The notes beneath the pieces are model-generated. The model did no database searches. It was not told where the DNA came from and was given only the letters and a program-made list of their open reading frames with translations. A DNA stretch of 64,000 nucleotides from an uncultured Sphingomonadaceae bacterium (lineage in GTDB: Bacteria; Pseudomonadota; Alphaproteobacteria; Sphingomonadales; Sphingomonadaceae): NCBI GenBank assembly GCA_947499255.1, contig CANMNF010000001.1, forward strand, positions 496,001 to 560,000, in the 5' to 3' direction. Positions 47,061 through 61,921 of the stretch are shown here, piece by piece; positions within the stretch are counted from its first letter, which is position 1, and each line of letters begins with the position of its first letter. The translations under genes were made by a program, and so were the position numbers.

Positions 47061-48274
47061 GCGAGGGTGACCTTATTGTGCGCTTGGCCGCGCGCGGTGA
47101 TGGTTTAACCGCCAGTGGTAAGCATGTTTCTAGAAGTGCGCCGGGTGATCTGGTGTTGCCTGACGGGACCCTCGAACATGGTCCCAACCACGTGGAGCCG
47201 CCATGCCGCCATTTTGGCAAATGTGGCGGTTGTGAGTTACAGCACGTTTCAGACGCTGAACTGGCCAAGTTTGTTAAAGAGCGGGTCGCCCATGCGGCGC
47301 AGGGGCAAGGTCTCACGCCAGCCATCATCACTGATGCCGCCATGTCACCACCACGCAGCCGCCGCCGCGCCAGCTTACAAGCGATAAATGGCGGTGGCAG
47401 ACCGCTTATCGGCTTTGCTCAGCGCGGGTCGCACAAGCTGGTTGATATGCGCGAATGCCACATCTTGCACCCGGCACTGTTCGGTTTGCTCGCGCCATTC
47501 CGCAGCTATTTTGCAAAGCTCAAGGGGCGCTATGGCATCGGGATAGAATTGGCGATGACCGATCAGGGACCGGGCGTCTCACTCAGCAATTTCGCACCAG
47601 AGGGGCTGGAAGCGACAGAAGGCTTGCTCGATTTTTGCCGCGAACATGGTTTGGCGCGATTGACGGTCGATCATGGCTTTGGCCCGGAGACTTTCTGGGA
47701 GCCTGATCGTGTGACGGTGACTTTGGGCGCGGTGCCAGTCGCGTACCCGGCAGGAGCATTCTTGCAAGCAACCCAGGATGGTGAAGCAGCTCTTATTGGT
47801 GCGGCCAAGGAGTGGCTGGCTGATTGCACGTCTATCGCAGACTTGTTCAGCGGGCTTGGCACGTTCGCTTTCGCGCTTGTGCAAACTGCCAAAGTCGTTG
47901 CGGTTGAGGCTGACAAGGCCGCCATTCTGGCTGCGAAACTGGCAGCAGCGCGCGGCAAGTTGCCGATGCAAACCATCCACCGCGATCTGTTCCGCAATCC
48001 CATGCGCCCGCAGGAATTGAGCGGTTTTGATGGCGTTGTGCTCGATCCGCCGCGCGCTGGTGCCAAGGCGCAGATTGAGCAATTGGCGCAAAGCGATGTG
48101 TCACGGATCGTCTATATCAGCTGCAACCCATCAAGCTGGTCACGCGATGCAGTGCAATTGTGCGACGCGGGTTATGAATTGCGCGAAGTGCGGCCTGTGG
48201 GTCAGTTCCATTGGTCAACGCATGTCGAGCTGGCGAGCCTGTTCGTGAAGCGCGCCGAGGATGGCGTCGAATAA
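47057..48274 (+). CDS. class I SAM-dependent RNA methyltransferase (RlmD/RumA family)
   Basis: A 405-residue TrmA/RumA-type 5-methyluridine methyltransferase. A [4Fe-4S] site is formed by Cys50, Cys56 and Cys59 (CRHFGKCGGCE) with Cys134 (MRECHILHP). The SAM domain has SIADLFSGLGTFAFAL, VVLDPPRAGAKAQ and the catalytic Cys356 in VYISCNPSSW. Compared with E. coli RlmD (433 residues) the N-terminal TRAM domain is shortened. The likely target is a uridine of 23S rRNA, but the exact base cannot be read from sequence. The last 60 bases overlap, tail to tail, the hydrolase 1 gene. Confidence 0.9.
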   Translation: MSEGDLIVRLAARGDGLTASGKHVSRSAPGDLVLPDGTLEHGPNHVEPPCRHFGKCGGCELQHVSDAELAKFVKERVAHAAQGQGLTPAIITDAAMSPPRSRRRASLQAINGGGRPLIGFAQRGSHKLVDMRECHILHPALFGLLAPFRSYFAKLKGRYGIGIELAMTDQGPGVSLSNFAPEGLEATEGLLDFCREHGLARLTVDHGFGPETFWEPDRVTVTLGAVPVAYPAGAFLQATQDGEAALIGAAKEWLADCTSIADLFSGLGTFAFALVQTAKVVAVEADKAAILAAKLAAARGKLPMQTIHRDLFRNPMRPQELSGFDGVVLDPPRAGAKAQIEQLAQSDVSRIVYISCNPSSWSRDAVQLCDAGYELREVRPVGQFHWSTHVELASLFVKRAEDGVE

Positions 48275-49018
48275 CCACGCGCGCGCAGCATCTGAGCTGA
48301 ACGCATGATCTGCATCGGCCAAAGCAGAGATGCGCGGATCGTCTTTTGGCCATGCAGCGGAAAAGGCCTGCGCAGTGCGATCACGCGCCGCAAGCAGGAT
48401 CTGCACTTCGCCGTCAAATTTGCTCAGCGACTGGGCGATCTCTTCGGCCAAAGAAGATGGCGCAGATTCAGAGGCAACCGCACCTTTCAGCCCACGCGTA
48501 AGCTTGCCCAAATCGACATTGCCGCGCAGCAATCGGCCCCATTCCTTGGGATCGCACAGCTTGCTTACATAGCGTGAGCGGATGGCCGCTGGTGGCGGCA
48601 GCGCATCGCTCACCTCATTGTCTGAAAAGGTCCACGGATTGGCCATGATCAGACCCGCACATCCCGCGCCGCTGCGCAAAGCCAATGCAGTTGCCGCATC
48701 ACAATTACCGAACGCGACGACGCGCGACAGCCCGGACGCCTCGGCCCGAAATGCTTCCAAAGCAGCCGCTATATCAGGACCGCTTGTGCGATACCCACCA
48801 TTCTCACCGGTTGAATCGCCAACCCCGCGCCTGTCAAAACGCATGACCGGGAAGCCACTTGCGGCGATTTTCGCAGCCAATTGCGCCTGACCTCCGAATG
48901 CCCCAGCACGAACTTCATTGCCTCCTGATACGATCAACAATCCCACCGGTGAGATGGCTTCATCGACCGTGCCCGACAGTTGCTCCCCAGAACACGGGAA
49001 TTGGAAATGACGCCGCAT
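48215..49018 (-). CDS. exosortase A system-associated hydrolase 1
   Basis: A 267-residue alpha/beta-hydrolase of the family known only beside XrtA exopolysaccharide loci. GLLIVSGGNEVRAGAFGGQAQLA, VMRFDRRGVGDSTGENGGY and a later IMANPWTF are family features. The nucleophile elbow reads AFGNCDAATAL, so Cys106 stands where hydrolases normally have Ser (GxSxG). It may be a thioesterase or acyltransferase acting on the adjacent acyl carrier protein (inference). The start overlaps the hydrolase 2 stop by one base. Confidence 0.87.
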   Translation of the reverse strand: MRRHFQFPCSGEQLSGTVDEAISPVGLLIVSGGNEVRAGAFGGQAQLAAKIAASGFPVMRFDRRGVGDSTGENGGYRTSGPDIAAALEAFRAEASGLSRVVAFGNCDAATALALRSGAGCAGLIMANPWTFSDNEVSDALPPPAAIRSRYVSKLCDPKEWGRLLRGNVDLGKLTRGLKGAVASESAPSSLAEEIAQSLSKFDGEVQILLAARDRTAQAFSAAWPKDDPRISALADADHAFSSDAARAWLFDAILGALHEQARQLDMR

Positions 49019-49698
49019 CAGCCGACCGCCTCGCTAACAATCGCGGCAAGTTTTTCCGCTTGTTCAGCATCGTGCGATGGCTCTGCGCGCAGCCACAAGG
49101 CACCGCCTCCAATCGCGCTTTGCGCCAAGCTCGTGGCCGCGCTATGCGGAAACTCTGCCTCTGCAAGCTGGGTGATCATTTGCGCGCCAAGCTCATAGCC
49201 GCCAAGCCTCAGGCCATTGCGCTTGCCATCTTCCAGCAACGCTTCGCGGTCGCTATTGATGCCTGCTTCGCGATCACTCATCACCCGGGCGCGCAGCATT
49301 GACTTGAGCACTCCTGCTCCATCAAGCGGCGCATAACGCAATCCCGCAATATTCCCCGGATCGAGCAAAGCGCTTGCGCGAACCGTCAGGATAAATGTTG
49401 CCCCAAAGTGCTCTGCCGCAGCGCGCGCTTGCTCTTGCCATGCTACAAGGGTCTGCGCGGCCATAGGTGCGATGCTTTCATTGCAGCCGGAAAAGTCGGG
49501 CAGGAAGCTATCAATACCGCGCTGCTTAAGCGCACGCATCACCTCGACGGTGAAATGGCGCAGCTTGTTACCTTCTTCAAACAAGGCTGGTAAAATGAGG
49601 ATGCGCGTATCGGACCCACTATCGCAGCTCAGCGCGAGTTCCGGTCCTGCATCACCGGGGCAAGGCCATGTCCCCAGCATATCAGGCGGCCGCGTCAA
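49018..49698 (-). CDS. exosortase A system-associated hydrolase 2
   Basis: A 226-residue protein related to alpha/beta-hydrolases. RILILPALFEEGNKLRHFTVEVMRAL near the N-terminus and SFLPDFSGCNES match the second hydrolase family of XrtA loci. The expected elbow region reads LTVRASALL, without a clear GxSxG, so activity is uncertain. The start is TTG at 49698, overlapping the carrier-protein stop (TTGA), or ATG at 49680. It is the third gene of a leftward operon. Confidence 0.82.
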   Translation of the reverse strand: MTRPPDMLGTWPCPGDAGPELALSCDSGSDTRILILPALFEEGNKLRHFTVEVMRALKQRGIDSFLPDFSGCNESIAPMAAQTLVAWQEQARAAAEHFGATFILTVRASALLDPGNIAGLRYAPLDGAGVLKSMLRARVMSDREAGINSDREALLEDGKRNGLRLGGYELGAQMITQLAEAEFPHSAATSLAQSAIGGGALWLRAEPSHDAEQAEKLAAIVSEAVG

Positions 49699-49988
49699 TC
49701 GGTCTGACGTTTGTCAGTGACAAAGGCGAGCAATCCGCCAAACGTTTCCAGCATTTCGCCATCGACATCATCATCCTCGATAAGGATATCGAGCCGATCC
49801 TCGATCTCTGTCAGCAAGCCTGCCACTGCCATCGAGTCCAATTCGGGCAAGTGACCAAACAGGCCGCTGTCCTCGTCCAATTCGGCCACTTGTTCTGGCG
49901 CAAGGCCCAGCACATCGGCGAGCACTTGACGAAGGACCGCTTCGGTCTCCTCCGCCTTGTCGATCTTTACGGGCAAGTTCGTGGCCAT
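49695..49988 (-). CDS. XrtA-associated acyl carrier protein
   Basis: A 97-residue four-helix carrier protein. Ser52 in LPELDSMAVAGLL is the 4'-phosphopantetheine attachment site; the surrounding helix is acidic (IEDRLDILIEDDDVDGEM), as in ACPs. The start at 49988 was preferred over an upstream codon. Carried substrates in XrtA loci are not established. Its neighbours (ligase, decarboxylase, GNAT, two hydrolases) suggest a dedicated carrier for a small acyl or aminoacyl group. Confidence 0.9.
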   Translation of the reverse strand: MATNLPVKIDKAEETEAVLRQVLADVLGLAPEQVAELDEDSGLFGHLPELDSMAVAGLLTEIEDRLDILIEDDDVDGEMLETFGGLLAFVTDKRQTD

Positions 49989-49999
49989 GGCGATTGGGA

Positions 50000-50986
50000 T
50001 TAGCCATTGCGGCGCTGCGTGACAAGATTGCGCATGCCCAAACGTACCAATAATGGCCAATTTCCGGGGAATTCAGGGCGAAGACAGGTCAAACTGTAAC
50101 GTTCTCGGACATTGTTCATCCAATCGCGTTTGTAGCTATCATCGCCCGTGCCAAAATCAACTTCGCGCACTTTGTCCTTATCAACCACGTGCCGAAATAG
50201 CGCTGCGGAAAGCGAGGTTCCCGCGGAAATCTTCTTGGATGCTTCAAGATGGGCGAGCTTGTGAATATAGGCGACGTCGCTCTCAACCGTCCAAAACTGC
50301 GCCGCCACCGGCTCACCTTCATGGCGCGCGATGCCAAAGCGGAGCTGGCCTTTTGCGCTTTGGGCCTCAGCAAAGCGGCGCAACATGGCAGGATCACCTT
50401 CTTCCGGCTTCCAACTGTGCGCATAGATCGCCTCATAAGCCTCCCAATCATCAGCCGAAAACTGATCCGTCACTGTGATATCGACAAGCTTGGCCTTGCG
50501 TTTGATCGTCGAACGCAATTGGCCGGGGAGCGAGGCGAAATATTCGGAGTAGGTTCGGCCATCAACACGCAGGAAATGATTAGTGTCACATGGCTCTTCG
50601 AACACCCGCCATCCCGCCTTGCGAAACGCGTCTTTGAAGTGGAGCAACGTGCCATTATCCAAGGGCAGCTTGGAGAAATGGATATGTTTGGCGTAATTGG
50701 CAATATCGCGCGCAATCGCTTCGAGTAATGCGGGCTTGGGGCCATCGCCGGTATATATCGCATGCCAAGTAAACGCATACCAATTGGTGCAAATTTCCAA
50801 TCTGTTGCCCGCGTTCTGCAACGGCAAAGCGAGGGCGTCTTCGCCATCTTGAGCCAGCGCAATCAAAGGCTTATGCCCGGCATCTTCCAGCATCTGGAAC
50901 CACGATAGGCGCGTGAAGGGATCATCCGCGCGCCAATCAAGGTCTTGCAGATCTTTAACTGTGTCGTGATAGCTGACCGCTGTCAC
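50000..50986 (-). CDS. GNAT/FemAB-like acyltransferase
   Basis: A 328-residue protein with a BcsL/CelD/FemAB-type GNAT fold: FTRLSWFQMLEDAG at the N-terminus, YFASLPGQLRSTIKRKAKL, GIARHEGEPVAAQFWTVESDVAYIHKLAH and VDFGTGDDSYKRDWM. Such proteins transfer acyl or aminoacyl groups to amines or sugars. The GTG start lies 26 bases from the divergent ligase start. It is the first gene of the leftward operon with the carrier protein, which is its plausible donor. Confidence 0.85.
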   Translation of the reverse strand: MTAVSYHDTVKDLQDLDWRADDPFTRLSWFQMLEDAGHKPLIALAQDGEDALALPLQNAGNRLEICTNWYAFTWHAIYTGDGPKPALLEAIARDIANYAKHIHFSKLPLDNGTLLHFKDAFRKAGWRVFEEPCDTNHFLRVDGRTYSEYFASLPGQLRSTIKRKAKLVDITVTDQFSADDWEAYEAIYAHSWKPEEGDPAMLRRFAEAQSAKGQLRFGIARHEGEPVAAQFWTVESDVAYIHKLAHLEASKKISAGTSLSAALFRHVVDKDKVREVDFGTGDDSYKRDWMNNVRERYSLTCLRPEFPGNWPLLVRLGMRNLVTQRRNG

Positions 50987-51012
50987 CGCCCTAACTTCTC
51001 CATAGGAGCCCC

Positions 51013-52527
51013 ATGCCCATCGCGCTTGATCCCCAGCCTTACCCGCTTGATCACCTTACACAATATGGTGACGATACGCGCGATGCTCTCGTGCTGCGCG
51101 GCGAAACGCTTAGCTGGCAGGACTTAAGAAGCCGTGTGGGCGCGCTTGCGGCATGGCTCGTGCAGCAAGTGCCGCAAAAGGGCACTCGTATTGCCAGCTG
51201 GGCCGCGAAGGGTGAGCTGACCTGTTTGCTGCCGCTGGCCGCAGCGCGGGCCGGGCTGGTGCATGTTCCGATCAACCCATTGCTGAAACGCGCGCAGGTT
51301 GCGCATATCTTGGGCGATTGCGATGCCAGTATGCTCATAGGTAATACAGCGCGCCTCAAGTCGTTGGATGATGGAGATACGCCCGATAACTGCGCGGTAA
51401 TCGAAGATAAGGTGGCGTTGAGCCAGGCGGCTGACTTGGATGCAAACTTGGCAATATCCGATGCTGATCCTGAAGAGCTTGTCGCTATCATGTACACCAG
51501 CGGCTCCACCGGTCGGCCCAAAGGCGTGATGCTAAGCCATGCGAATTTGTGGCTGGGTGCGGTGAGCGTGGCACATTATCTAAAAATGGAAGCCGATGAC
51601 CGGACGCTTGCCGTGCTGCCATTGAGCTTTGACTATGGGCAAAACCAGCTGCTTTCCACATGGCGCGCAGGGGGATGCGTGGTGCCGCTCGATTATCTGA
51701 TGCCGCGCGATGTCACCAAAGCTTGTGCCAAGTATCACATCACCACGCTGGCAGCTGTGCCGCCTTTATGGGTCCAGTTAACAGAGCAGGATTGGCCCGA
51801 AGAAGCCGCCACTAATATGCGCAGACTAACCAATAGCGGCGGCGCATTGACGACGGATTTGGTGCGCTATCTGCGCCGCCTTTTGCCCGATGCTGATCTT
51901 TATCCGATGTACGGGCTGACAGAAGCTTTCCGATCAACCTATCTCGATCCAGCATTGGTGGATACCAATCCCACCAGCATGGGCACAGCGATACCCTTTG
52001 CAGAAATACTGGTGGTGGATGAGGCAGGCGAAGTCACCGATGAGGGAGAACTGGTCCATTGCGGACCTTTGGTCGCGCAAGGATATTGGGACGATCCAGA
52101 ACGTACGGCGCGGCGGTTCAAACCAGCGCCCAAAGCGTCACAATATGGCGGAACAGCAGTTTTTTCCGGCGATACAGTGCAGCGCGATGGGCAAGGTTTG
52201 CTCTATTTCGTGGCGCGCGATGATGCCATGATAAAAAGCGCGGGCAACCGCATCAGCCCGCAGGAAATTGAGGAAGCGGTTTTGGCAACAAACTTGGTCA
52301 GCGAAGCGGTGGCATTCGGCATGCCAGATGATCGGCTTGGCCATGCCATCCATCTTGTGGTGCGCGGCGCGGTGAGCGAGAATGACCTTCGCAAAGCTCT
52401 CCGCATTGATCTGCCCAATTTTATGCAACCTGCCGATATTCGTATTGTTGATGCCATGCCGCTTAATCCCAATGGCAAGGTGGATCGTTCATTGCTGGCG
52501 AAAGAAGCTTTGGAGAAACTGGCGTGA
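51013..52527 (+). CDS. acyl-CoA ligase (AMP-forming), exosortase A system-associated
   Basis: A 504-residue adenylate-forming enzyme. The P-loop YTSGSTGRPKG is at residues 161-171, with YPMYGLTEAF, the SGDTVQRDGQGLLYFVARDDAMIK core region and the C-terminal Lys motif LNPNGKVDRSLL. It would activate a carboxylic acid as acyl-AMP and load it on CoA or, more likely here, the neighbouring carrier protein (inference). AGGAG precedes the ATG. It is coupled to the decarboxylase by GTGA. Confidence 0.9.
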   Translation: MPIALDPQPYPLDHLTQYGDDTRDALVLRGETLSWQDLRSRVGALAAWLVQQVPQKGTRIASWAAKGELTCLLPLAAARAGLVHVPINPLLKRAQVAHILGDCDASMLIGNTARLKSLDDGDTPDNCAVIEDKVALSQAADLDANLAISDADPEELVAIMYTSGSTGRPKGVMLSHANLWLGAVSVAHYLKMEADDRTLAVLPLSFDYGQNQLLSTWRAGGCVVPLDYLMPRDVTKACAKYHITTLAAVPPLWVQLTEQDWPEEAATNMRRLTNSGGALTTDLVRYLRRLLPDADLYPMYGLTEAFRSTYLDPALVDTNPTSMGTAIPFAEILVVDEAGEVTDEGELVHCGPLVAQGYWDDPERTARRFKPAPKASQYGGTAVFSGDTVQRDGQGLLYFVARDDAMIKSAGNRISPQEIEEAVLATNLVSEAVAFGMPDDRLGHAIHLVVRGAVSENDLRKALRIDLPNFMQPADIRIVDAMPLNPNGKVDRSLLAKEALEKLA

Positions 52528-53762
52528 AACCCACAGGCCCCATTCCTGCCGATTTCGCCGCAAAGGATGGCGAACTTGTCATCGGCGGCAAAACTGTCAG
52601 CGCTTTGGTGCGCGAGGCGGGGGATACGCCGCTTTTCGTCTATTCGCGCGAGATAATCGCCGCGCGCATCGCTGCGGTTCGCGCGGCAATGCCGGAACGC
52701 ATTGCTTTGCATTATGCAATGAAGGCAAACCCTTATCCGCCATTGCTGGAATGGATTGCAGATGAAGTCGATGGCCTCGACATCGCCTCTGGCGGGGAGC
52801 TGGAGCAAGCGCGCACGGCCGGATTTCTGCCGCGCGAAATAAGCTTTGCCGGACCGGGCAAACGTGACCGCGAATTGGAAGCCGCCATTGCAACAGGTGT
52901 CACGCTTAATGTGGAATCCGAGGGGGAGGCCAAGCGCGCCTTGAAAATCGGAGAACGGCGCGGCGTTGCTCCAAGGCTGGCAATACGGGTCAATCCGGGT
53001 TTTGAAATGCGCGGATCGGGCATGAAGATGGGTGGCGGCGCAAAACCATTTGGTATTGATGAAGATCGTGTGCCCGCACTGGCGCGCACCATTGTTGATG
53101 CCGGGGCACAATGGCGTGGATTTCACGTTTATTCTGGCAGCCAAGCTCTTGATCCTCAAGCGATTGTTGAAACCCAAGCCCAGGTGATCGCATTAACAGC
53201 CAAGCTGGCCGATGAAGCCGACGTGCCTGTCCCGCATCTCAATATGGGTGGCGGTTTTGGAATCCCCTATTTCAGTAGGGATACGCCGCTTGATCTGGCA
53301 CCGATCGGCGATGCTTTAGAGCAACAATTCGCGCAATTGCCGTCAGCTTTACAAGACACGCAATTCGCTATCGAATTGGGCCGGTATCTGGTTGGCGAAG
53401 CGGGCGTGTATCTCACCACCATTCTCGACCGCAAAGAGAGCCACGGCGTCACCTATCTCGTCACCGATGGCGGGCTGCATCATCAGCTCGCCGCTTCGGG
53501 TAATTTCGGCACAGTTGTACGCCGGAACTATCCCGTCGCCATCGCCAATCGCTTTGGCGAAGAGGCCACAGGGCAGGCAAGCGAGGAGGTCAGCGTTGTA
53601 GGGTGCCTGTGCACACCGCTGGATCGTTTGGCGGACAATGTAGCGCTTCCGCGCGCGGATGTGGGTGATATGGTCGCGGTGTTTTGCGCAGGCGCTTACG
53701 GAGCGAGCGCAAGCCCGGCAACGTTTCTGGGCCAAGGTCCAGCGCATGAGATGCTGGTTTAG
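52524..53762 (+). CDS. PLP-dependent decarboxylase, exosortase A system-associated
   Basis: A 412-residue fold-type III enzyme of the diaminopimelate/ornithine decarboxylase group. Lys67 in HYAMKANPYP binds PLP. GLDIASGGELEQA, RVNPGFEMRGSGMKMGGG and LNMGGGFGIPYF bind phosphate. At the C-terminus VSVVGCLCTPLDRLADNVALP holds the Cys and Asp of the partner-subunit active site, and VFCAGAYGASASP is also typical. This is the XrtA-linked subfamily, not lysA. Its substrate is probably an amino acid, free or carrier-bound (inference). Confidence 0.9.
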   Translation: MKPTGPIPADFAAKDGELVIGGKTVSALVREAGDTPLFVYSREIIAARIAAVRAAMPERIALHYAMKANPYPPLLEWIADEVDGLDIASGGELEQARTAGFLPREISFAGPGKRDRELEAAIATGVTLNVESEGEAKRALKIGERRGVAPRLAIRVNPGFEMRGSGMKMGGGAKPFGIDEDRVPALARTIVDAGAQWRGFHVYSGSQALDPQAIVETQAQVIALTAKLADEADVPVPHLNMGGGFGIPYFSRDTPLDLAPIGDALEQQFAQLPSALQDTQFAIELGRYLVGEAGVYLTTILDRKESHGVTYLVTDGGLHHQLAASGNFGTVVRRNYPVAIANRFGEEATGQASEEVSVVGCLCTPLDRLADNVALPRADVGDMVAVFCAGAYGASASPATFLGQGPAHEMLV

Positions 53763-53949
53763 GCCACGCTTATGTGTTGTCCCGTAGCGGGACAGTGGCG
53801 TAGAAAGGCTCGGATATCCGGCCTTTGCGGCAAAAGGCTAACGCTATATTAACCCTTCATCGCGAAAAGGTTCGATGGATCCATAGGCAGGTCCGCATTT
53901 GCGTGAAGAAACGCACTGCACTTGCCGCCATTCGCGAAGGACGCATTTG
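53763..53949 (+). promoter_or_regulatory. structured regulatory region before the polysaccharide export operon
   Basis: This is the only sizeable gap within the rightward XrtA genes. It holds a perfect 7-bp hairpin TGTCCCG-TAG-CGGGACA (53778-53794), the palindrome CGGATATCCG (53811-53820), and a hairpin GCCTTTG...CAAAAGGC (53821-53838), followed by AT-rich GCTATATTAACCC. It likely separates the ligase-decarboxylase pair from the export operon and holds the latter's promoter. No gene is seen here. Confidence 0.45.
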
Positions 53950-54591
53950 ATGCGCAACAATATTGTTACCAGGCTTTTCCTCGCGCTTGCGGGTATGACC
54001 CTCGCGCTTACCGGCTGCGCTAGCGGCAGTGGCAATGAGCTTGAGCCTGCACGCTTTGTCGCCATGCAGGAAGGTCCGGGCGAAGAATATGTGATTGGTC
54101 CGCTTGATAGTTTGACGATTCATGTCTGGCGCAATGATGAGCTGGGCGCCTCTGTTCAAGTGCGCCCCGATGGTCGCATCACCACGCCGCTGGTTTCCGA
54201 TATGCCTGCAGTTGGCAAAACGCCAACCATGCTTGCCGAAGACATCCGCTTGCAGCTCTCGCAATATATTTCAGAGCCGCTCGTTACCGTAATCGTGAAC
54301 GAATTTGCCGGTACTTTCAGCCAGCAAGTGCGCATTGTGGGCGCGACAGAAGCGCCTGCATCGCTGCCTTACCGTGCGAACATGACATTGCTTGATGCGA
54401 TGATCTCAGTCGGCGGTTTGAGCGAATTTGCCGCTGGCAACCGGGCAAAGCTAATCCGCTTTGACCGCGAAAGCGGGGAGCAGAAGGAATACAACATTCG
54501 CCTCAACGATCTGCTGCGCAAAGGCGATAGCGATGCGAATGTTCTGTTGATGCCGGGTGATGTGATCATCATTCCGGAAAGCATGTTCTAA
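53950..54591 (+). CDS. polysaccharide export outer-membrane lipoprotein (Wza-like, XrtA system)
   Basis: A 213-residue lipoprotein. The signal and lipobox LTGC place the lipid on Cys23. The Poly_export domain is EEYVIGPLDSLTIHVWRND, and a SLBB-like part follows (FSQQVRIVGATEAPASLPYRANMTLLDAMISVGGL); it ends VLLMPGDVIIIPESMF. It should form the outer-membrane pore for exopolysaccharide. It is shorter than Wza, having one SLBB repeat. The start at 53950 has AAGGACG upstream. First gene of the export operon. Confidence 0.93.
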   Translation: MRNNIVTRLFLALAGMTLALTGCASGSGNELEPARFVAMQEGPGEEYVIGPLDSLTIHVWRNDELGASVQVRPDGRITTPLVSDMPAVGKTPTMLAEDIRLQLSQYISEPLVTVIVNEFAGTFSQQVRIVGATEAPASLPYRANMTLLDAMISVGGLSEFAAGNRAKLIRFDRESGEQKEYNIRLNDLLRKGDSDANVLLMPGDVIIIPESMF

Positions 54592-54608
54592 ACAGGGGCT
54601 CTGGGGCA

Positions 54609-56126
54609 TTGAACCACCTTATTGAAGAATTGCGCGCAGCCATCTGGTCGGTCTGGAACCGCCGCTGGTTAGCTTTGGCAGTAGCCTGGGGCGTGTGCCT
54701 TTTGGGCTGGCTGGTCGTTGCGCTGATCCCGAATAGTTACGAGTCCGAGACCCGCATTTTTGTGCAATTGGATGATGTACTGGCCGAACAGATCGGTATC
54801 GGTTCAGGTGCGCGTGCGCGAGATATCGATCGTATCCGGCAAACGCTGGTGAGCGCGGTCAATCTTGAAAAAGTGGTCCGCACAACGCGGCTTGGCGATA
54901 CTGTAACGACCGCGGGCGAGATGGAGGCTGCGATTGGCGGCCTTTCTGATGACGTTAAAGTCGTTAGCCAGGGTGAAAATATCTTCGAAATCACCACGAC
55001 GATGGGGCGCAGTGATCTGTCCGATTCTGATAATGCGGAATTGGCGCAAATTGTCACCCAACGCATGATCGACATTTTTCGTGAGGAGAATCTGGGTGGT
55101 TCGCGCGGTGAAATGGCGGACTCTATCGAATTTCTCAATCAACAGCTGATCCAGCGCGAAGCTGAACTGGCTTCTGCCGAAGAACGCCGCCTGTCTTTCG
55201 AAGCGGCGAATCCGGAATTGGTCGGCGGCGCGCAAGCGATCTCACAAAAATTGAGCGCAACGCGTGCTGAATTGCGCAGTGTTGAAGCCGATCTGGCAGC
55301 TTCGCAAAGCGCGATGGCAGCTATTGAAGGTCAACTGGCCAGCACGCCGCGCTTTATCGTCACGCCTGGCTCTGGCGGGCCGCAGGCGAATTTGGCGCAG
55401 GCTGAAGCCAATCTAACATCTTTGCGCGCGCGTGGACTTACCGATGAGCATCCCGATATGGTGGCCGCGAAACGCACCGTGGCATCGTTGCGCGAACAGG
55501 CGCAGGCATCAAACGGGGCAGGGGGCACGCCCAATCCGGCCTACACGTCCTTGCAGTCGATCCGCGTGCAGCGTCTTGCCTCAGTGCAATCGCTGCAATC
55601 ACGCGTTTCGGCGTTGCGTGCTGAGATCGCATCGATCACCGCTGATCAAGCGCGTGAGCCAGGCGCTGCCGCTGAAGCGCAGCGCATCAGCCGCGATTAC
55701 GAAGTTCTGCGCCGCCAATATGATGAGCTGTTGCAAGACCGCGAGCAATTGCGCCTGCGCGGCCAAGTGGAAAGCGAACGCAGCGCAGTGCAATTCGAAG
55801 TGATCGATCCGCCAAGTACACCGCTATCACCTGCTGCTCCCAACCGTCCGATATTGCTTTTTGCAGTGCTGGTGCTTGGCCTTGGGGCAGGGGGCGGTGC
55901 AGCTTTTGCGATCAGTAAGCTGGGATCAACCTTTTCCACCGCAAGCCAGCTTGAGCGCAGTTTCGGCCTGCCTGTAATCGGCACCGTTTCACACACGTTG
56001 AGTGAGGCGGGACGGGCCATCCGCACGCGTCGGCTTAAGTATTTTGCAGCTGGTATTGCCGGTCTGGGCGCGCTGTTTTTCGTGCTGCTGGGCGTGGAAT
56101 TCGTCCAGCGCGGATTGGTTGCGTGA
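54609..56126 (+). CDS. Wzz-type chain-length determinant protein (XrtA system)
   Basis: A 505-residue inner-membrane co-polymerase. The N-terminal helix is at about residues 18-40 (WLALAVAWGVCLLGWLVVAL). A long periplasmic coiled-coil region follows (QQLIQREAELASAEERRLSF and later LRREYD-like DYEVLRRQYDELLQDREQLRL), then FEVIDPPSTPLSPAAPNRP and C-terminal helices. The tail carries an extra hydrophobic segment (YFAAGIAGLGALFFVLLGVEF). It begins at TTG, 17 bases after the lipoprotein gene. The kinase is a separate gene, as usual in XrtA loci. Confidence 0.9.
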   Translation: MNHLIEELRAAIWSVWNRRWLALAVAWGVCLLGWLVVALIPNSYESETRIFVQLDDVLAEQIGIGSGARARDIDRIRQTLVSAVNLEKVVRTTRLGDTVTTAGEMEAAIGGLSDDVKVVSQGENIFEITTTMGRSDLSDSDNAELAQIVTQRMIDIFREENLGGSRGEMADSIEFLNQQLIQREAELASAEERRLSFEAANPELVGGAQAISQKLSATRAELRSVEADLAASQSAMAAIEGQLASTPRFIVTPGSGGPQANLAQAEANLTSLRARGLTDEHPDMVAAKRTVASLREQAQASNGAGGTPNPAYTSLQSIRVQRLASVQSLQSRVSALRAEIASITADQAREPGAAAEAQRISRDYEVLRRQYDELLQDREQLRLRGQVESERSAVQFEVIDPPSTPLSPAAPNRPILLFAVLVLGLGAGGGAAFAISKLGSTFSTASQLERSFGLPVIGTVSHTLSEAGRAIRTRRLKYFAAGIAGLGALFFVLLGVEFVQRGLVA

Positions 56127-56136
56127 GGGGTATGGG

Positions 56137-57108
56137 ATGACTGAACAAAGCAAAATCCCGCCTGCTGGCGCTTCATCGATTGAGCGTGCTGACCAGAGCT
56201 TTGGTTCTGGCGAATTTGCGCCAGCGCCAGTGCCTGCAAAGTTGAAACGTCCGATCAATCGCCGTCCGTTGGCGAAAAAGATTGAGCAGCCTGCGCCTGC
56301 TCATGTGATTGAGACCGGTGCAAGTTCCAATGCGCCTCAAACAAAGCCGGAAGTGCCGGCGCTGCGTATTGATGGTGAAACCCACCCAATCGATCGTGAC
56401 ATGCTGGAAGTACACGGTTTGATCATCCCAGAGGCGCAAGTGAGCGGCCTATTGGAAGAGTTCCGCATTGTGAAACGCAGCGTGCTTAGCTCCATGCGAA
56501 AAGCACAAGAAGCAGGTTCTGGCGGTCAAGCACAACGCATTCTCGTCTCATCTCCATTGCCTGATGAGGGTAAGAGCTTTTGCGCCGTCAATCTCGCCAT
56601 TGCGCTTGCCGCGGAAAAGGACAGCGAAGTTCTTTTGGTCGATGCCGATTTTGCCAAACCATCGGTACTCTCCATGCTTGGCTTGCCCGGTGGCAATGGA
56701 TTGATGGATGTGCTGGCCAATCCCAAAATTCAGCTGGAAGATTGTGTTCTCAAAACCGATATTTCGGGCCTCAGCGTCCTGTCAGCAGGCAATCACACCA
56801 ATTCCGACAGTGAATTTCTTGCCAGCAACCGGACTGAACAAGTGCTCGATGCATTGACGCGCGGTGCGCCCAATCGCGTTGTGATTTTTGATAGTCCGCC
56901 AGCACTTGCCGCATCACCTGCGGCAGAGTTGGCGGATCATGTTGGGCAAGCGATTGTGATCGCTCGCGCTGACCGCACAGGGCAAAGCGCGCTGGAAGAT
57001 GCGCTAACGTTGCTCAGCACCTGTCCCGATATCAAATTGCTGCTCAACGCAGCGCATTTCAGCCCCAGTGGACGCCGCTTTGGCGCATATTATGGGCAGG
57101 ACGGATAG
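56137..57108 (+). CDS. XrtA-associated tyrosine autokinase (BY-kinase)
   Basis: A 323-residue cytoplasmic bacterial tyrosine kinase that phosphorylates itself and regulates polymerisation with the Wzz-like protein. Walker A SPLPDEGKS is at residues 139-147, Walker A' VLLVDADFAKPS at 165-176 and Walker B VVIFDSPP at 248-255. The first 100 residues are a Pro-rich, poorly conserved tail. The C-terminal tyrosine cluster is reduced to Tyr318 and Tyr319 (RRFGAYYGQDG). The start at 56137 follows GAGGGGTATGGG, 10 bases after the Wzz-like gene. Confidence 0.92.
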   Translation: MTEQSKIPPAGASSIERADQSFGSGEFAPAPVPAKLKRPINRRPLAKKIEQPAPAHVIETGASSNAPQTKPEVPALRIDGETHPIDRDMLEVHGLIIPEAQVSGLLEEFRIVKRSVLSSMRKAQEAGSGGQAQRILVSSPLPDEGKSFCAVNLAIALAAEKDSEVLLVDADFAKPSVLSMLGLPGGNGLMDVLANPKIQLEDCVLKTDISGLSVLSAGNHTNSDSEFLASNRTEQVLDALTRGAPNRVVIFDSPPALAASPAAELADHVGQAIVIARADRTGQSALEDALTLLSTCPDIKLLLNAAHFSPSGRRFGAYYGQDG

Positions 57109-57112
57109 AGCC

Positions 57113-58768
57113 ATGCGTAAGCTTTTATCATCTCTCACTGTGATCGGCTTGTTGGCAGCACCTCTCCCTCTGGCCGCGCAAGACGGCGGCACAGACGCCA
57201 GCGATGGCGGCGAGCGGTCCGAACGATCGCCGCGCCGCGCGCTTGAAGTGCAACCATATATCGAGGCTGCGCAAGTCATTTCGGCTGAACTTACGCCCGG
57301 CGATGATGTGGTCACCTATACCCAAATTGCTACAGGTGTGGACGCCGGATTTGGGGGTCGCAATTCAAGCGGCTCGGTCTCGCTGCGTTATGAACGCCGC
57401 ATTGGTTATGGCGATGCGAATGATGTGGATACTGTCAGCGGTATCGCGCGCGCATCGCTTGCACTTGTGCCGCGCGCGCTGTCATTCGAAATCGGCGGAT
57501 TGGCATCGCGCACCCGGATTGATGGCAATGGCGCCACCTCGGTCGGCGCGTTCGGCAATCAGGATGAAGCCACCAGCCAGATCTATTCCGTATTTGGCGG
57601 ACCAAGCTTCCAAACGCGGCAAGGCCCGGTGGAATTGAGCGGGTCATATCAGGCAGGCTATTCCCGTGTGGAATCGCCCAATGCTTTGGTGCTTGCGCCA
57701 GGTGATGACCCCGTGGACATTTTCGACGATAGCATCGTGCAAAATGCCAATGTGCGCGCTGGCATTGCGCCGCGTACGGTTTTGCCTGTTGGGCTGGGTC
57801 TTGGTGCGGGCTGGAATCGGCAGGATGTTGGCAACCTGGATCAGCGGGTGGACAACAAATATGTTCGCGGTGACGTGACCCTTCCGGTATCACGTACAGT
57901 GGCCCTTGTTGGCGGTGTTGGATACGAAGATGTCACCGTTTCAAGCCGCGATGCTATTCTTGATGATGCAGGCAATGCAGTGCTTGGCAGCGACGGGCGC
58001 TTTTTGACCGATACATCGCAACCACGCGAAATCGCTTTTGAAACTGACGGCTTGATTTGGGATGTGGGCGTTATGTGGCGCCCCAGCAACCGCACATCGT
58101 TGTCCGCAACGGTAGGTCGCCGATATGGCTCGACCACCTACTATGGCAACCTGTCCTATGCGCCCAATCCGCGCACCAATGTGAATGTCGCAGTGTATGA
58201 CAATTTGACCACCCTTGGCGGCCAGCTCAACAGCAATCTTGGCGGGCTTGGCACCAACTTCCAAGCTTTTCGTAATCCGATTTCGGGCGATCTGAATGGC
58301 TGTGTAGCAAGCGATGAAGGCGGCAATTGTGCGCTGGCGGGCATTGGTTCTTTGCGCAGCGCAGTGTTTCGCAATCGCGGTGTCACCGGCAGTGTGTCAC
58401 GCAATTTGGGTCGCACTACGCTTGGCGTTGGGCTTGGCTATGATCGGCGCAGCTATATCGCTGCGGCCGGTACAGTTTTTGCCGACATCGATGGCTTGAC
58501 CGAGGAAAACTACTGGGTTTCGGCCTATGGCAACCGTCAGCTTGATCGCCGATCGGGTGTAAACTTTGGCGCAACGGCAACTTGGTTCGAAAGTGGACTC
58601 GATAACTCTGGCGATGGCTTCGGATACAGCGCAAACATGTCTTACTACCGAGAGATCATTGACGGGTTGAGCGGCACGGCTGCTTTGGGCCTCGATGGGA
58701 TTTCACGTGATGAGGTTGATAACTTCGCGATTATTTCCGCGTTGCTCGGCCTGCGTTACACATTTTAA
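57113..58768 (+). CDS. XrtA-associated outer-membrane beta-barrel protein
   Basis: A 551-residue protein. The signal peptide is MRKLLSSLTVIGLLAAPLPL, cleaved after LAAQ. An acidic linker precedes a long series of alternating-hydrophobicity strands (SGSVSLRYERRIGYGD, GPVELSGSYQAGYSRVES, RTVALVGGVGYEDVTVSS). The last residue is an aromatic (LLGLRYTF), the usual outer-membrane barrel signature. It belongs to the large barrel family found in PEP-CTERM/XrtA loci; it may be the outer export channel or an anchor for the polymer. It starts 5 bases after the kinase. Confidence 0.87.
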   Translation: MRKLLSSLTVIGLLAAPLPLAAQDGGTDASDGGERSERSPRRALEVQPYIEAAQVISAELTPGDDVVTYTQIATGVDAGFGGRNSSGSVSLRYERRIGYGDANDVDTVSGIARASLALVPRALSFEIGGLASRTRIDGNGATSVGAFGNQDEATSQIYSVFGGPSFQTRQGPVELSGSYQAGYSRVESPNALVLAPGDDPVDIFDDSIVQNANVRAGIAPRTVLPVGLGLGAGWNRQDVGNLDQRVDNKYVRGDVTLPVSRTVALVGGVGYEDVTVSSRDAILDDAGNAVLGSDGRFLTDTSQPREIAFETDGLIWDVGVMWRPSNRTSLSATVGRRYGSTTYYGNLSYAPNPRTNVNVAVYDNLTTLGGQLNSNLGGLGTNFQAFRNPISGDLNGCVASDEGGNCALAGIGSLRSAVFRNRGVTGSVSRNLGRTTLGVGLGYDRRSYIAAAGTVFADIDGLTEENYWVSAYGNRQLDRRSGVNFGATATWFESGLDNSGDGFGYSANMSYYREIIDGLSGTAALGLDGISRDEVDNFAIISALLGLRYTF

Positions 58769-58791
58769 CGGGCACGAGGGAGAACCGGCCC

Positions 58792-59940
58792 ATGTTTGAT
58801 AATTTCTATGGCCTGACGGGCAAACCGTTTCAGCTGACGCCAGATCCGGATTTCTATTTCCGGTCCGCCACGCACAAAAAAGCTTTGTCCTATCTGGGAT
58901 ATGGCCTGGCGCAGGGTGAAGGCTTTATTGTTATTACAGGTGAGATTGGCGCGGGTAAATCCACGCTGGTCGCGCATATGATGGAAAATGTGGATTCGGC
59001 TCAACTGACCGTGGCGCAAGTCGTTACCAGCAAGCTGAATGAAGATGAGCTGATCCATGTGGTCGCGCGCAGCTTTGGCTTGTTGATCGATGGACATGAT
59101 AAAGCATCAGCGCTCAGCGAAATCGAAGCTTTCCTGCACGAAGAAGCGCGCGAGGGCCGGCGCTGCCTGTTGGTGGTGGACGAATCACAGAACCTTTCGG
59201 TGGGCGCTTTGGAAGAGCTGCGGATGCTGTCCAATTTCCAATTGGGCAATCATCCCCTCCTGCAAATCCTCTTGCTGGGTCAGCCGGAATTCCGTGATCT
59301 GGTAAAAAGCGATGCCGGACTTGAGCAATTGCGTCAGCGGATTATCGCCTCGCATCATCTTGGGCCGATGGAAAAGAGTGAGATCGAACCGTATCTCACA
59401 CATCGCCTTGGCCAAGTTGGGTGGGAAGGCAATCCCGCCTTTGACCAACGCGTCTTCCATGAGCTTTACGAATCGAGCGGTGGCATTCCGCGCAAAGTGA
59501 ACCAGATCGTCAACCGGGTGTTGTTGCTGGGCGCTGTTGAAGAACGTCAGAAAATTGATGCGGCATTGCTGCAACAAGTTCTTGAAGAGATGGCGGGCGA
59601 CAATTCTGCAGGTGCCACTGGCAAACCTGTCGAAGTAGCCAGCGCTCCTGTCATGGCCACTGGAGATGATGCGGTGGCACAGATCGACTTCTCCAAGTTC
59701 GAAACCGCGCTGGGTGAACGCGATGCGCAAATCTCGGAGCTGCAACAGGCTGTAGTCGAGCTGGCAAACGCGCAGGAAAGCAATTCCGCCGAAGGCCTGG
59801 ATCCGCAAATCGCGGCCCTCAACGAACAGATCGCCAAGCTGGAATCGCGCATGTTTGAACAAGAGCGTACTATCCGGCAGACCCTTTCGATGTTGATCGA
59901 ATGGATCGAAAGCGAAATGGAAGCTACCAAGGCGGCCTGA
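58792..59940 (+). CDS. XrtA-associated ExeA-like AAA ATPase
   Basis: A 382-residue ATPase. MFDNFYGLTGKPFQLTPDP is the classic opening of ExeA/GspA-type proteins. Walker A is GEIGAGKST (residues 50-58), Walker B LLVVDESQNLS, and there is an arginine-sensor region LRQRIIASHHLGPM. The last 120 residues form a Gln/Glu-rich coiled coil (ISELQQAVVELANAQES). No transmembrane helix is evident. It is found in XrtA loci beside the barrel protein; it probably helps assemble the export machinery. GAGGGAG precedes the ATG. Confidence 0.92.
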   Translation: MFDNFYGLTGKPFQLTPDPDFYFRSATHKKALSYLGYGLAQGEGFIVITGEIGAGKSTLVAHMMENVDSAQLTVAQVVTSKLNEDELIHVVARSFGLLIDGHDKASALSEIEAFLHEEAREGRRCLLVVDESQNLSVGALEELRMLSNFQLGNHPLLQILLLGQPEFRDLVKSDAGLEQLRQRIIASHHLGPMEKSEIEPYLTHRLGQVGWEGNPAFDQRVFHELYESSGGIPRKVNQIVNRVLLLGAVEERQKIDAALLQQVLEEMAGDNSAGATGKPVEVASAPVMATGDDAVAQIDFSKFETALGERDAQISELQQAVVELANAQESNSAEGLDPQIAALNEQIAKLESRMFEQERTIRQTLSMLIEWIESEMEATKAA

Positions 59941-59954
59941 AAGGAACCCTCGCC

Positions 59955-60866
59955 GTGAACGCGATCACTCCCAATGCTGACCGCGATAAGGCGCGAAACC
60001 TCGTCAACGGACTATCCGTGGACGTGGAGGACTGGTTTCAAGTCGGCGCGTTTGAAGACGTGATTGAACGGGACAATTGGGCCCAGCTAGATGACCGGGT
60101 CGAACGCAATACGCATGAAGTGCTCGCCCTGTTTGACGAAGCGGGTGTTTCTGCAACCTTCTTCACGCTTGGTTGGGTGGCCCAGCGGCACGGCCCATTG
60201 ATGCGCGCGGTGGTTGATGCAGGGCACGAAGTGGCAAGTCACGGTTGGGATCATCAACGCGTTTTCAATCTAGGCCAACAGGGGTTCGCAGAAGATATCG
60301 CAAAGGCGCGCAGCGTGTTGGAAGATGCGACTGGCCAAATGGTCGTGGGCTATCGCGCGCCAAGCTTCTCCATCGATCATCGCACGCCGTGGGCTTTTGA
60401 AGAACTTGCCGAGCAGGGCTACCTTTATTCCAGCAGTGTCGCGCCCGTTGCGCATGACCATTATGGCTGGGCCGACGCGCCGCGATTTGCTTTCAATCCT
60501 TTGCCGGGTTCTGATTTGGTAGAATTGCCTGTCACTACCGCGATGTTTGGCGGCAAACGTATGGCAGCAGGCGGGGGCGGGTTTTTCCGCGTGCTGCCTT
60601 ACGCTTTTAGCCGCTGGGCCATTCGTCAGGTTAATCGGGACGAGGGGCGCCCCGCCATGTTCTATTTCCATCCGTGGGAAATCGATCCGGGTCAACCACG
60701 CGTCGCCGGCGCTCCGATCAAATCGCGCCTGAGGCATTACACCAACCTTGATCGCATGGCTGATAAGCTGCGCCAATTGGTACATGATTTCGCATGGGGC
60801 AGGGTGGATCATATCGCGCAACGCGAAGCCGCCCGACTTTCTATTGAGGCGAAGGAGACGGCGTGA
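59955..60866 (+). CDS. XrtA-associated polysaccharide deacetylase (DUF3473)
   Basis: A 303-residue NodB-type deacetylase. NGLSVDVEDWFQVGAF holds the catalytic Asp and metal Asp (residues 23 and 26), EVASHGWDHQRVF the metal-binding histidines, and GYRAPSFSIDHRTPWAFEEL the conserved Arg. The C-terminal DUF3473 part has GGGGFFRVLPYAFSRWAI and FYFHPWEIDPGQPR. It would remove N-acetyl groups from the polymer or its precursor. I chose the GTG at 59955, behind AAGGAA; the stop overlaps the next gene (GTGA). Confidence 0.92.
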   Translation: MNAITPNADRDKARNLVNGLSVDVEDWFQVGAFEDVIERDNWAQLDDRVERNTHEVLALFDEAGVSATFFTLGWVAQRHGPLMRAVVDAGHEVASHGWDHQRVFNLGQQGFAEDIAKARSVLEDATGQMVVGYRAPSFSIDHRTPWAFEELAEQGYLYSSSVAPVAHDHYGWADAPRFAFNPLPGSDLVELPVTTAMFGGKRMAAGGGGFFRVLPYAFSRWAIRQVNRDEGRPAMFYFHPWEIDPGQPRVAGAPIKSRLRHYTNLDRMADKLRQLVHDFAWGRVDHIAQREAARLSIEAKETA

Positions 60867-61921
60867 ACATGCCGTTCGCCTTGAATCTTGAAACGGTGCG
60901 CGAAGCTGATTTGTCGCAGCCTGATGAGGTGCAGCGCATCGAAGGCTTTGTCGCAGCGCAAGGCGGCGCAGTGTTTCATCGCCCCGCATGGCTGCGCGCG
61001 GTTGAGGCAGGCACCGGGCAAATCGCAACGGGGCTGATCGCGGAAAGATCAGGCGAAATCACCGGGTGGCTTCCGCTAACCGTTGTGCATTCGGCGATCT
61101 TTGGCCGTGCATTGGCTTCCAGCGGGTTCGCCGTTGAAGGCGGCATTCTAGGCGCGGACGACGCGACAGGCACGGCTTTATGCCGCGCGGCAGAAGAACT
61201 CGCCCAGCGCCATTCTTGCACAACAATCGAATTGCGCGGCGGGTTTGCTCCAGCAAACTGGAACGTCACGACAGACAGCCATTGCGGCTTCATCACCGCT
61301 CTAGCTGAGGATGACGAAGCGCAGTTGATCGCTATCCCGCGTAAACAGCGAGCAGAAGTTCGCAAAAGCCTGAAAAACGATCTGACCGTTTCGGTTGGAC
61401 GCGACGTGGATGATCGCGCGGCGCATTATGCTGTTTATGCGGAAAGCGTCCGCAATTTGGGAACGCCTGTCTTTCCTAAAGCGCTTTTCAAACATGCGAT
61501 GGACGCATTGGATGCCGACATCCTCACCGTGCGCCATGACGGCAAACCTGTGGCCAGCGTACTATCGATTTATCATGATGGCGCCGTCATGCCTTATTGG
61601 GGCGGAGGCACCTGGGATGCGCGGCGTTTGCGCGCCAATGATCGGATGTATTACGCACTGATGTGCCATGCGCGCCAACGCGGGTGTGACAGGTTTGATT
61701 TTGGCCGCAGCAAAACGGGCAGCGGCGCCTATAGCTTCAAAAAGAATTGGGGTTTTGAACCTGAGCCGCTTTCTTATGCAAGCTGGACTGCACTTGGCCA
61801 CGAAGCGCGCGACACCAATCCCAATAGCGGACGGCACCAATCACGCATTGCGCTTTGGAAGAAGCTGCCTTTGCCCATCGCCAATCGCCTCGGCCCCTTC
61901 ATCGCCCGGGGCCTTGGATGA
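60863..61921 (+). CDS. XrtA-associated FemAB-like aminoacyl/acyltransferase
   Basis: A 352-residue GNAT-fold protein of the FemAB family found in PEP-CTERM loci. HRPAWLRAVEAGTG, AEDDEAQLIAIPRKQRAEVRKSL, VRHDGKPVASVLSIYHDGAVMPYWGGG and FDFGRSKTGSGAYSFKKNWGFEP are the conserved blocks. It probably adds an amino acid or acyl group to the polysaccharide or its lipid carrier. It starts at GTG overlapping the deacetylase stop, or at an ATG 6 bases on. This is a second GNAT/FemAB protein in the locus, besides the one at 50000-50986. Confidence 0.9.
   Translation: MNMPFALNLETVREADLSQPDEVQRIEGFVAAQGGAVFHRPAWLRAVEAGTGQIATGLIAERSGEITGWLPLTVVHSAIFGRALASSGFAVEGGILGADDATGTALCRAAEELAQRHSCTTIELRGGFAPANWNVTTDSHCGFITALAEDDEAQLIAIPRKQRAEVRKSLKNDLTVSVGRDVDDRAAHYAVYAESVRNLGTPVFPKALFKHAMDALDADILTVRHDGKPVASVLSIYHDGAVMPYWGGGTWDARRLRANDRMYYALMCHARQRGCDRFDFGRSKTGSGAYSFKKNWGFEPEPLSYASWTALGHEARDTNPNSGRHQSRIALWKKLPLPIANRLGPFIARGLG

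Follow-up and report, generated by a model that had tools for sequence, protein, structure and literature searches.

A core trio of carrier-protein genes beside an exosortase A locus of sphingomonads: a candidate replacement for PanD in beta-alanine supply

The six genes considered here lie at positions 48215-53762 of a 64,000-nucleotide stretch of DNA from an uncultured Sphingomonadaceae bacterium (the window, i.e., the whole stretch that was analysed; G000:C1:496001-560000, from a whole genome of 2.96 Mb), next to a polysaccharide locus with exosortase A (XrtA). A preliminary description of this DNA had treated them as one closed kit that builds an amino-acid-derived group on a carrier protein for an exopolysaccharide. 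We find that the six genes are a core trio, i.e., an acyl carrier protein (ACP), a ligase and a pyridoxal phosphate (PLP) decarboxylase, plus a mostly XrtA-linked add-on of two hydrolases and a GNAT-like protein. The strongest comparative signal is the replacement of PanD, and the best explanation overall, which sequence comparison makes somewhat probable, is that the trio would decarboxylate carrier-bound aspartate at its alpha-carboxyl and so supply beta-alanine in place of PanD. The features of the locus are:

48215-49018, minus strand: hydrolase 1, XrtA-linked add-on (TIGR03100, 226.4 bits, cut-off 168.45)
49018-49698, minus strand: hydrolase 2, XrtA-linked add-on (TIGR03101, 44.1 bits, under the cut-off of 202.75)
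49695-49988, minus strand: ACP, core trio (PF00550, 27.9 bits)
50000-50986, minus strand: GNAT-like protein, a FemABX-fold transferase, XrtA-linked add-on (PF13480)
51013-52527, plus strand: predicted amino-acid:ACP ligase, core trio (TIGR03098, 621.5 bits, cut-off 592.35)
51631-51633, 51835-51837 and 51931-51933, plus strand: Asp207, Ser275 and Arg307, predicted substrate residues of the ligase (from the VinN alignment)
52524-53762, plus strand: PLP decarboxylase of BtrK type, core trio (TIGR03099, 579.7 bits, cut-off 478.45)
53899-63165, plus strand: XrtA polysaccharide locus (profile matches for export, chain length, tyrosine kinase, TIGR03016, ATPase, deacetylase, FemAB and the glycosyltransferase stp1)
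56002-57108, plus strand: tyrosine kinase of the XrtA locus (match under the NCBIfam cut-off)
57068-58768, plus strand: TIGR03016 outer-membrane protein (match under the NCBIfam cut-off)
59901-60866, plus strand: deacetylase of the XrtA locus (profile match)
60863-61921, plus strand: FemAB of the XrtA locus (profile match)
63236-64000 within the window, plus strand: XrtA (TIGR03109, 331.4 bits, cut-off 208)

All six module genes are intact open frames with the coordinates that the preliminary description had given them, and profile matches bear out their position next to the XrtA locus. The genes for the GNAT-like protein, the ACP, hydrolase 2 and hydrolase 1 are neighbours on the minus strand, spaced or overlapping by no more than 11 bases, and the ligase and decarboxylase genes overlap by 4 bases on the plus strand. 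Only 136 bases lie between the decarboxylase and the start of the XrtA polysaccharide genes, and the XrtA match itself (63236-64009; G000:C1:559236-560009) crosses the right edge of the window. In a gene tree the ligase and decarboxylase of the window were placed with Erythrobacteraceae. Both hydrolases, the ACP, the GNAT-like protein, export, deacetylase and FemAB were all present in 46 of the 61 relative loci with long enough flanks; the linkage of these genes exceeds chance.

Presence and absence were scored in a sample of 200 Pseudomonadota genomes and in a family sample of 119 genomes from the same family as the window. Loci were fetched for the best 80 of 573 relatives of the decarboxylase, with titles naming sphingomonads or unclassified Alpha-/Proteobacteria, and their genes were called by a simple script; counts refer to 68 of the 80, the other 12 having less than 6.5 kb upstream of the decarboxylase. 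Loci chosen by decarboxylase similarity cannot display genomes that lost the trio together with XrtA. The add-on genes were sought inside these loci, and genome-wide for hydrolase 1 in the 200-genome sample. The ligase-plus-decarboxylase tree was built from 71 rows by a quick method; one row (L068, not a trio-only locus) was built on the wrong ligase and forms a long branch.

Among the 200 genomes, XrtA scored over its cut-off in 10 and the decarboxylase in 10. Eight genomes have the two together; of the remainder, G007 and G015 have only XrtA, and G155 and G107 only the decarboxylase. The ligase was over its cut-off in 9 of the 200, with G126 under it (548.7 versus 592.35 bits). Hydrolase 1, at E<=1e-30, was found in 8 of the 200, and these are exactly the genomes with both XrtA and the decarboxylase over cut-off. 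At the level of loci, the ACP gene was present in 68/68, each hydrolase in 58 and the GNAT-like protein in 57, and all three add-on genes were missing from 10. None of the genomes with these 10 trio-only loci has XrtA over cut-off (three have weak matches, 124-145 bits), compared with four of four genomes with the add-on genes and no adjacent export gene, and four of four controls. The trio-only state corresponds to six changes on the gene tree, at least five of which are forced by starred branches. The trio is nonetheless kept in order: Asp207, Tyr208, Arg307 and Lys489 of the ligase and Lys67 and Cys363 of the decarboxylase are found in 10/10 trio-only loci, Ser275 is Ser in nine and Thr in one, and the ratio of non-synonymous to synonymous substitution rates (dN/dS) is 0.055-0.30 over six pairs, several dS values being greater than 1 and unreliable. 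Because the 10 loci without XrtA over cut-off retain a complete trio that shows purifying selection, the trio appears to have a job independent of XrtA. The single closed kit therefore gives way to a three-plus-three division, and the recurrence with exosortase A that the preliminary description had noted, together with the co-occurrence it had proposed to check, mostly holds for the add-on (L054 and L123 being exceptions), and the trio persists without XrtA as well.

Remnants of a polysaccharide locus are visible at three of the trio-only loci, i.e., an ATPase and deacetylase in L057, an ATPase in L077 and a 76-residue piece of the ATPase in L066. The other seven have zero labelled XrtA-locus genes, although a 214-residue protein of L083 matches AAA below the cut-off, and Pfam recognized no known polysaccharide gene among ten neighbour proteins from five trio-only loci. 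A few kb from the trio in L065, between an AFG1-like ATPase and an SdhB-like iron-sulfur protein, is a gene for a 4HBT thioesterase (L065:13852-14307; the Pfam test was of this locus), and equivalents stand near the trio in seven other trio-only loci. This is probably ordinary synteny; alternatively, the gene is a candidate for a release step. The trio can be split: in G102 the ligase (L030:7951-9534) lies near an asparagine-synthase-type amidotransferase, and hydrolase 1, the ACP and the decarboxylase (L029:8623-11060) are some 1.9 Mb away. The FemAB protein and deacetylase of the XrtA locus had also been tied to the module. Both are present in 10/10 XrtA genomes, including G007 and G015 that have no decarboxylase (FemAB of G007 misses its cut-off by half a bit), and a dependence of FemAB and the deacetylase on the module finds no support on these grounds. 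XrtA-type FemAB and deacetylase scored over cut-off in 39/200 and 43/200 genomes, respectively, versus 10/200 for XrtA, and the pair seems to serve other systems besides XrtA.

With its start ATG at 49988, the ACP has its phosphopantetheine site at Ser52 (codon 49833-49835). This serine, the site named in the preliminary description, stands in an Asp-Ser pair, which is found in 68/68 rows of the window and sphingomonad alignment and in 7/7 further rows; the serine is numbered 50 in that comparison. The ligase is nearest, by sequence comparison, to amino-acid-type adenylating enzymes. Searches of the PDB with the whole ligase alignment or with a whole relative were dominated by multi-domain chains and gave no alignment to VinN, whereas for residues 185-335 VinN was the sole match at E<=1e-6. 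The phmmer alignment pairs Asp207, Tyr208, Ser275 and Phe306-Arg307 of the ligase with Asp230, Phe231, Ser299 and Lys330-Arg331 of VinN; Arg307 falls at TE+3, gap-free and with the loop spacing of VinN kept. VinN activates the beta-carboxyl of 3-methylaspartate, with Asp230, Phe231, Ser299 and a shortened Lys330/Arg331 loop as its features, and accepts both 3-methylaspartate and aspartate (PMC11253843); Ser299 and Arg331 have been assigned to the alpha-carboxyl (PMC7756342). The window ligase has the Asp for the amino group, the bulky residue and Ser, and the short beta13-beta14 loop with Arg. As controls, six further adenylating enzymes encoded in the same stretches were compared; they have neither this Arg nor the loop spacing of VinN. 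Conservation is high: of 72 rows, the window being one, 71 have Asp207, Tyr208 and Arg307, while Ser275 is kept in 68 and three have Thr there. In 17 further rows Asp207 and Arg307 are invariant, Ser275 is replaced by Thr in six and Ala in one, and Tyr208 by Ala in G107 and G019 and by Phe in G081. Because the substrate residues of VinN are present, the ligase is predicted to load an aspartate-type amino acid through its side-chain carboxyl.

Neighbouring proteins were also scanned, 20 of them from nine outside stretches. One alone is informative on the substrate: in G014 (L034:7797-13949) the ligase, a methylaspartate mutase, the decarboxylase and a protein that matches both PIG-L deacetylase and methyltransferase families form one run. 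Perhaps a 3-methylaspartate-derived amide is placed on a sugar there. In G185 (L035:9515-15062) the ligase and decarboxylase are followed by a cobalamin-binding radical-SAM protein and a protein of the aminoglycoside 3-N-acetyltransferase family.

The decarboxylase has BtrK, an L-glutamyl-ACP decarboxylase, as its best PDB match (E 2e-66, the next being 1e-41), and is 35.2% identical to BtrK compared with 27.5% to the LysA of its own genome. It carries the BtrK-like motifs GGxHH, RxNYP, CTPxD and SPxxFLGH, which are common, fully or partly, to 15 relatives from other loci and absent from that LysA (TIGR01048, 438.7 bits); the His-His pair is missing in three relatives (G130, G081 and G175). 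The protein is closer to BtrK than to diaminopimelate decarboxylases. Its protein family suggests roles for Lys67 (52722-52724), as the PLP lysine, and for Cys363 (53610-53612). A further decarboxylase relative (L033:1460-11547) lies beside chain-length and kinase homologues and an ABC exporter whose Wzt C-terminal match is under cut-off; its genome has no ligase match at E<=1e-120. The residues of the ligase and decarboxylase are consistent with the earlier proposal that an amino-acid-derived group is made by activation, loading and decarboxylation on a dedicated carrier, and they make beta-alanyl-ACP the likely product.

PanD, by which beta-alanine is usually made, was found in 123 of the 200 Pseudomonadota genomes and in none of the 10 whose decarboxylase is over cut-off; of 19 module genomes, 0 have it. 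Distant, below-cut-off relatives of the decarboxylase do occur alongside PanD, in 5 of 13 genomes. In the family sample, the module is present in 101 of the 119 genomes (E<=1e-120; 100 over cut-off) and PanD in five, with zero overlap: each of these five belongs to the 18 genomes that lack the module (Fisher p 4.7e-5 by genome, 2.2e-4 by genus). Outside the family, PanD is found in 0/4 module genomes versus 123/190 others (p 0.017). These Fisher tests are one-sided and uncorrected for kinship, and relatedness makes the p-values too small. XrtA as a confounder of this pattern was rejected, since PanD is missing too from G155 and from nine more trio genomes that have no XrtA. Where PanD occurs in the family, panD adjoins panB-panC in three of the five genomes; for each of the remaining two, a single neighbour was tested and gave no match.

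A published survey agrees with this distribution. In 20 sphingomonads other than Zymomonas, its Table A2 lists panB and panC in 20/20, PanD in 0/20, PYD3 in 2/20 and GAD in 2/20, and 16 of the 20 are listed without PanD, PYD3 and GAD (PMC7142369). Erythrobacter sp. SD-21, the source of the XrtA-less trio locus L077, has panB and panC and is listed with none of five sources, i.e., PYD3, PanD, GAD, Aam and GabT (PMC7142369). We found neither the module nor PanD in Zymomonas mobilis ATCC 10988 (G242), and the pantothenate auxotrophy of Zymomonas has been ascribed to a missing aspartate decarboxylase, the study cited for it naming ZM4 in its title (PMC10370309). The Zymomonas case alone cannot single out the trio, because the transaminases Aam and GabT are missing there too (PMC7142369). 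The trio persists where XrtA is missing, and in none of the samples searched was it found together with PanD; these observations point to beta-alanine supply.

These results suggest a pathway in which the ligase would adenylate the beta-carboxyl of L-aspartate and load it onto Ser52 of the holo-carrier, as judged from its residues, and the PLP decarboxylase would strip the alpha-carboxyl to leave beta-alanyl-ACP, as judged from its BtrK-type kinship. Beta-alanine might then be released to feed PanC and hence the synthesis of pantothenate and coenzyme A (CoA), the trio replacing PanD in sphingomonads; on balance we lean slightly towards this last claim. In genomes with XrtA, the two hydrolases and the FemABX-fold transferase may divert the beta-alanyl group onto amines of the polymer. 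The history of the module probably began with its arrival together with the polysaccharide system, which would have made PanD dispensable and led to its loss; thereafter the trio would have been retained even where XrtA was lost.

The model of the GNAT-like protein (pLDDT 93.2) has a FemABX-type aminoacyl-transferase fold over its full length, the best fold match being Sbb17 (Z 21.4, root-mean-square deviation (rmsd) 3.0, 268 aligned), with FemX and FemA at Z 19-20. Sbb17 and Sba18 are aminoacyl-tRNA-dependent peptide synthases, and streptothrisamine is present in two of the three matched entries. The GNAT label given previously corresponds to PF13480; no NCBIfam family matched at E<=1e-3, and the profile found no PDB sequence at E<=1. 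For the proposed transfer onto amines, the model offers a likeness of fold to enzymes that join aminoacyl groups to amines; the protein would use an ACP thioester instead of aminoacyl-tRNA. Of the two hydrolases named earlier, hydrolase 1 fits TIGR03100 and has a Cys106-Asp213-His238 triad, with Cys and not Ser (58/59, 59/59 and 59/59 rows; Cys codon 48701-48703). Hydrolase 2 has a predicted alpha/beta-hydrolase fold (Z 17.9, rmsd 3.0, 197 aligned to the feruloyl esterase 7wwh), and Arg107 occupies the position of the Ser/Cys nucleophile in 60/60 rows and 3/3 further rows. A thioesterase role for hydrolase 2, and with it the editing or release that had been assigned to it, finds no support on account of this invariant Arg. 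Because hydrolase 1 has a Cys triad and hydrolase 2 an Arg in place of the nucleophile, Cys-based acyl transfer by hydrolase 1 with a non-catalytic partner may be considered, and is as likely as hydrolysis. Decoration of the polymer with beta-alanyl groups by the add-on genes is possible, if somewhat doubtful. Exopolysaccharide, the purpose originally envisaged, is at best half of the story.

Several observations weigh against beta-alanine supply by the trio in place of PanD. Neither PanD nor the module is present in 13 of the 119 family genomes, so other sources or auxotrophy exist, and the XrtA genomes G007 and G015 likewise have neither. Possible sources are the transaminases Aam, found in 13/20 sphingomonads, and GabT, found in 7/20; just 3/20 are listed without all of PYD3, PanD, GAD, Aam and GabT, and PanD is rare across Alphaproteobacteria at 17% (PMC7142369). 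Because Aam is present in 13 of these 20 relatives, the case for PanD replacement stays modest. Our own survey of beta-alanine sources in the sampled genomes covered PanD. The exchanges of PanD may be few in number and the p-values overstated. As to the release step, hydrolases 1 and 2 are missing from the trio-only loci. The pathway would be circular, as holo-ACP is needed to make a CoA precursor. Outside the family the substrate residues of the ligase are less constant: G107 and G019 have Ala at the aromatic position and Thr at that of Ser, and G014 has Ala at the latter. Outside the class the module is over cut-off in G019, G102 and G126 only together with XrtA, which fits a polymer role. 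Add-on genes do occur without XrtA over cut-off, in L054 (a metagenome bin) and L123. Lastly, loss of bolN in bolagladin synthesis was not rescued by beta-alanine (PMC7756342), and because of this failure BolN-type modules need not release free beta-alanine.

The polymer evidence could be taken further, to a module that serves the polysaccharide only: the deacetylase would free amines, the FemABX-fold protein or hydrolase 1 would attach a beta-alanyl or similar group to them, and the PanD pattern would be a coincidence. The exact correspondence of hydrolase 1 with genomes having XrtA and the decarboxylase, the fold kinship of the GNAT-like protein with the streptothrisamine-bound synthases, and TIGR03006 in 9/10 decarboxylase genomes all fit this explanation, as does G107, where the trio lies beside a glycosyltransferase (GT2), a deacetylase and an under-cut-off Wzy_C protein with no XrtA match at E<=1e-20; a polymer role of the trio in genomes such as this is plausible. 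As a general account we consider it unlikely: the trio persists in the 10 genomes without XrtA, seven of whose loci have no labelled XrtA-locus gene, XrtA genomes that lack the module still have FemAB and deacetylase, and PanD is excluded from module genomes in the samples searched. Only a little less probable is that, in the XrtA-less genomes, the trio makes some other conserved metabolite, the exclusion of PanD reflecting one old family split and beta-alanine coming from transaminases or other routes. The 13 genomes with neither PanD nor module and the frequency of Aam speak for it, as do the rarity of PanD in the class and PanD tests uncorrected for kinship. Against this, the exclusion of PanD extends outside the family, the ligase and decarboxylase residues independently predict beta-alanyl-ACP, and Erythrobacter SD-21 retains panB and panC with none of the five listed sources.

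Two further readings concern the chemistry. Since the nearest solved decarboxylase, BtrK, acts on glutamyl-ACP, the substrate could be glutamate, loaded through its gamma-carboxyl and converted to gamma-aminobutyryl-ACP as in butirosin synthesis. This is improbable, given that the ligase residues follow VinN with its 3-methylaspartate and aspartate substrates and that a methylaspartate mutase stands in the relative locus of G014; glutamate would also leave the PanD exclusion unexplained. The general family names would allow an ordinary fatty acyl-CoA ligase beside a second diaminopimelate decarboxylase, but the genome has a separate LysA, the ligase has the Asp of amino-acid enzymes in motif A4 and a loop like that of VinN, and 68/68 scorable loci have the dedicated ACP, all of which make this extremely improbable. 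Returning to beta-alanine supply by the trio, whether it is the missing and essential vitamin-B5 step of sphingomonads, serving both CoA synthesis and the decoration of the exosortase polysaccharide, is a finely balanced question.

Transaminases may be the beta-alanine source of many sphingomonads. If the trio is the source, it would be an additional route to a universal cofactor precursor, in which the logic of antibiotic synthesis has moved into primary metabolism, and it would explain a gene set named only by its association with exosortase A. Those who work with the XrtA gene set should note that half of the module has no tie to protein sorting. In a literature search outside of which most subscription journals fall, we found no paper tying exosortase to BtrK or naming TIGR03098 or TIGR03099, and six enzyme words tried on Haft 2006 had zero occurrences. 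No title on the module was among those listed for beta-alanine, panD, Sphingomonas and carrier protein, subscription journals again being mostly uncovered.

Comparison with known systems places the trio as follows. The ligase, decarboxylase and hydrolase 1 are over the cut-offs of the NCBIfam exosortase A system-associated families TIGR03098, TIGR03099 and TIGR03100; the naming of TIGR03098-TIGR03101 is by association only, whereas the trio also occurs without XrtA and hydrolase 2 is under the TIGR03101 cut-off. The VinN/VinL/VinO system of vicenistatin has the same elements, i.e., a stand-alone adenylating enzyme with Asp, a bulky residue, Ser, and Arg in a short loop, a stand-alone ACP, a PLP decarboxylase acting on the loaded amino acid, and loading through the side-chain carboxyl (PMC11284099, PMC11253843, PMC7756342). 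The trio differs in its surroundings, which are polysaccharide or housekeeping genes, and in its predicted product, either a substituent of the polymer or beta-alanine in free form. Among the window genes scanned there is no polyketide synthase and no VinM, VinK or VinJ partner. For BolO/BolC/BolN of the bolagladins, aspartate has been proposed to be loaded onto a stand-alone ACP and converted to beta-alanyl-ACP, and deletion of bolN abolishes the product (PMC7756342); that pathway feeds a non-ribosomal peptide synthetase, unlike the one proposed here. BtrJ/BtrI/BtrK of butirosin likewise includes a decarboxylase acting on a carrier-bound amino acid, and BtrK is the nearest solved structure by sequence, but the substrate there is glutamate and the loading enzyme, an ATP-grasp protein, belongs to another family. 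PanD achieves the same net conversion of aspartate to beta-alanine that is proposed for the trio, as a single pyruvoyl enzyme on free aspartate and from a different protein family.

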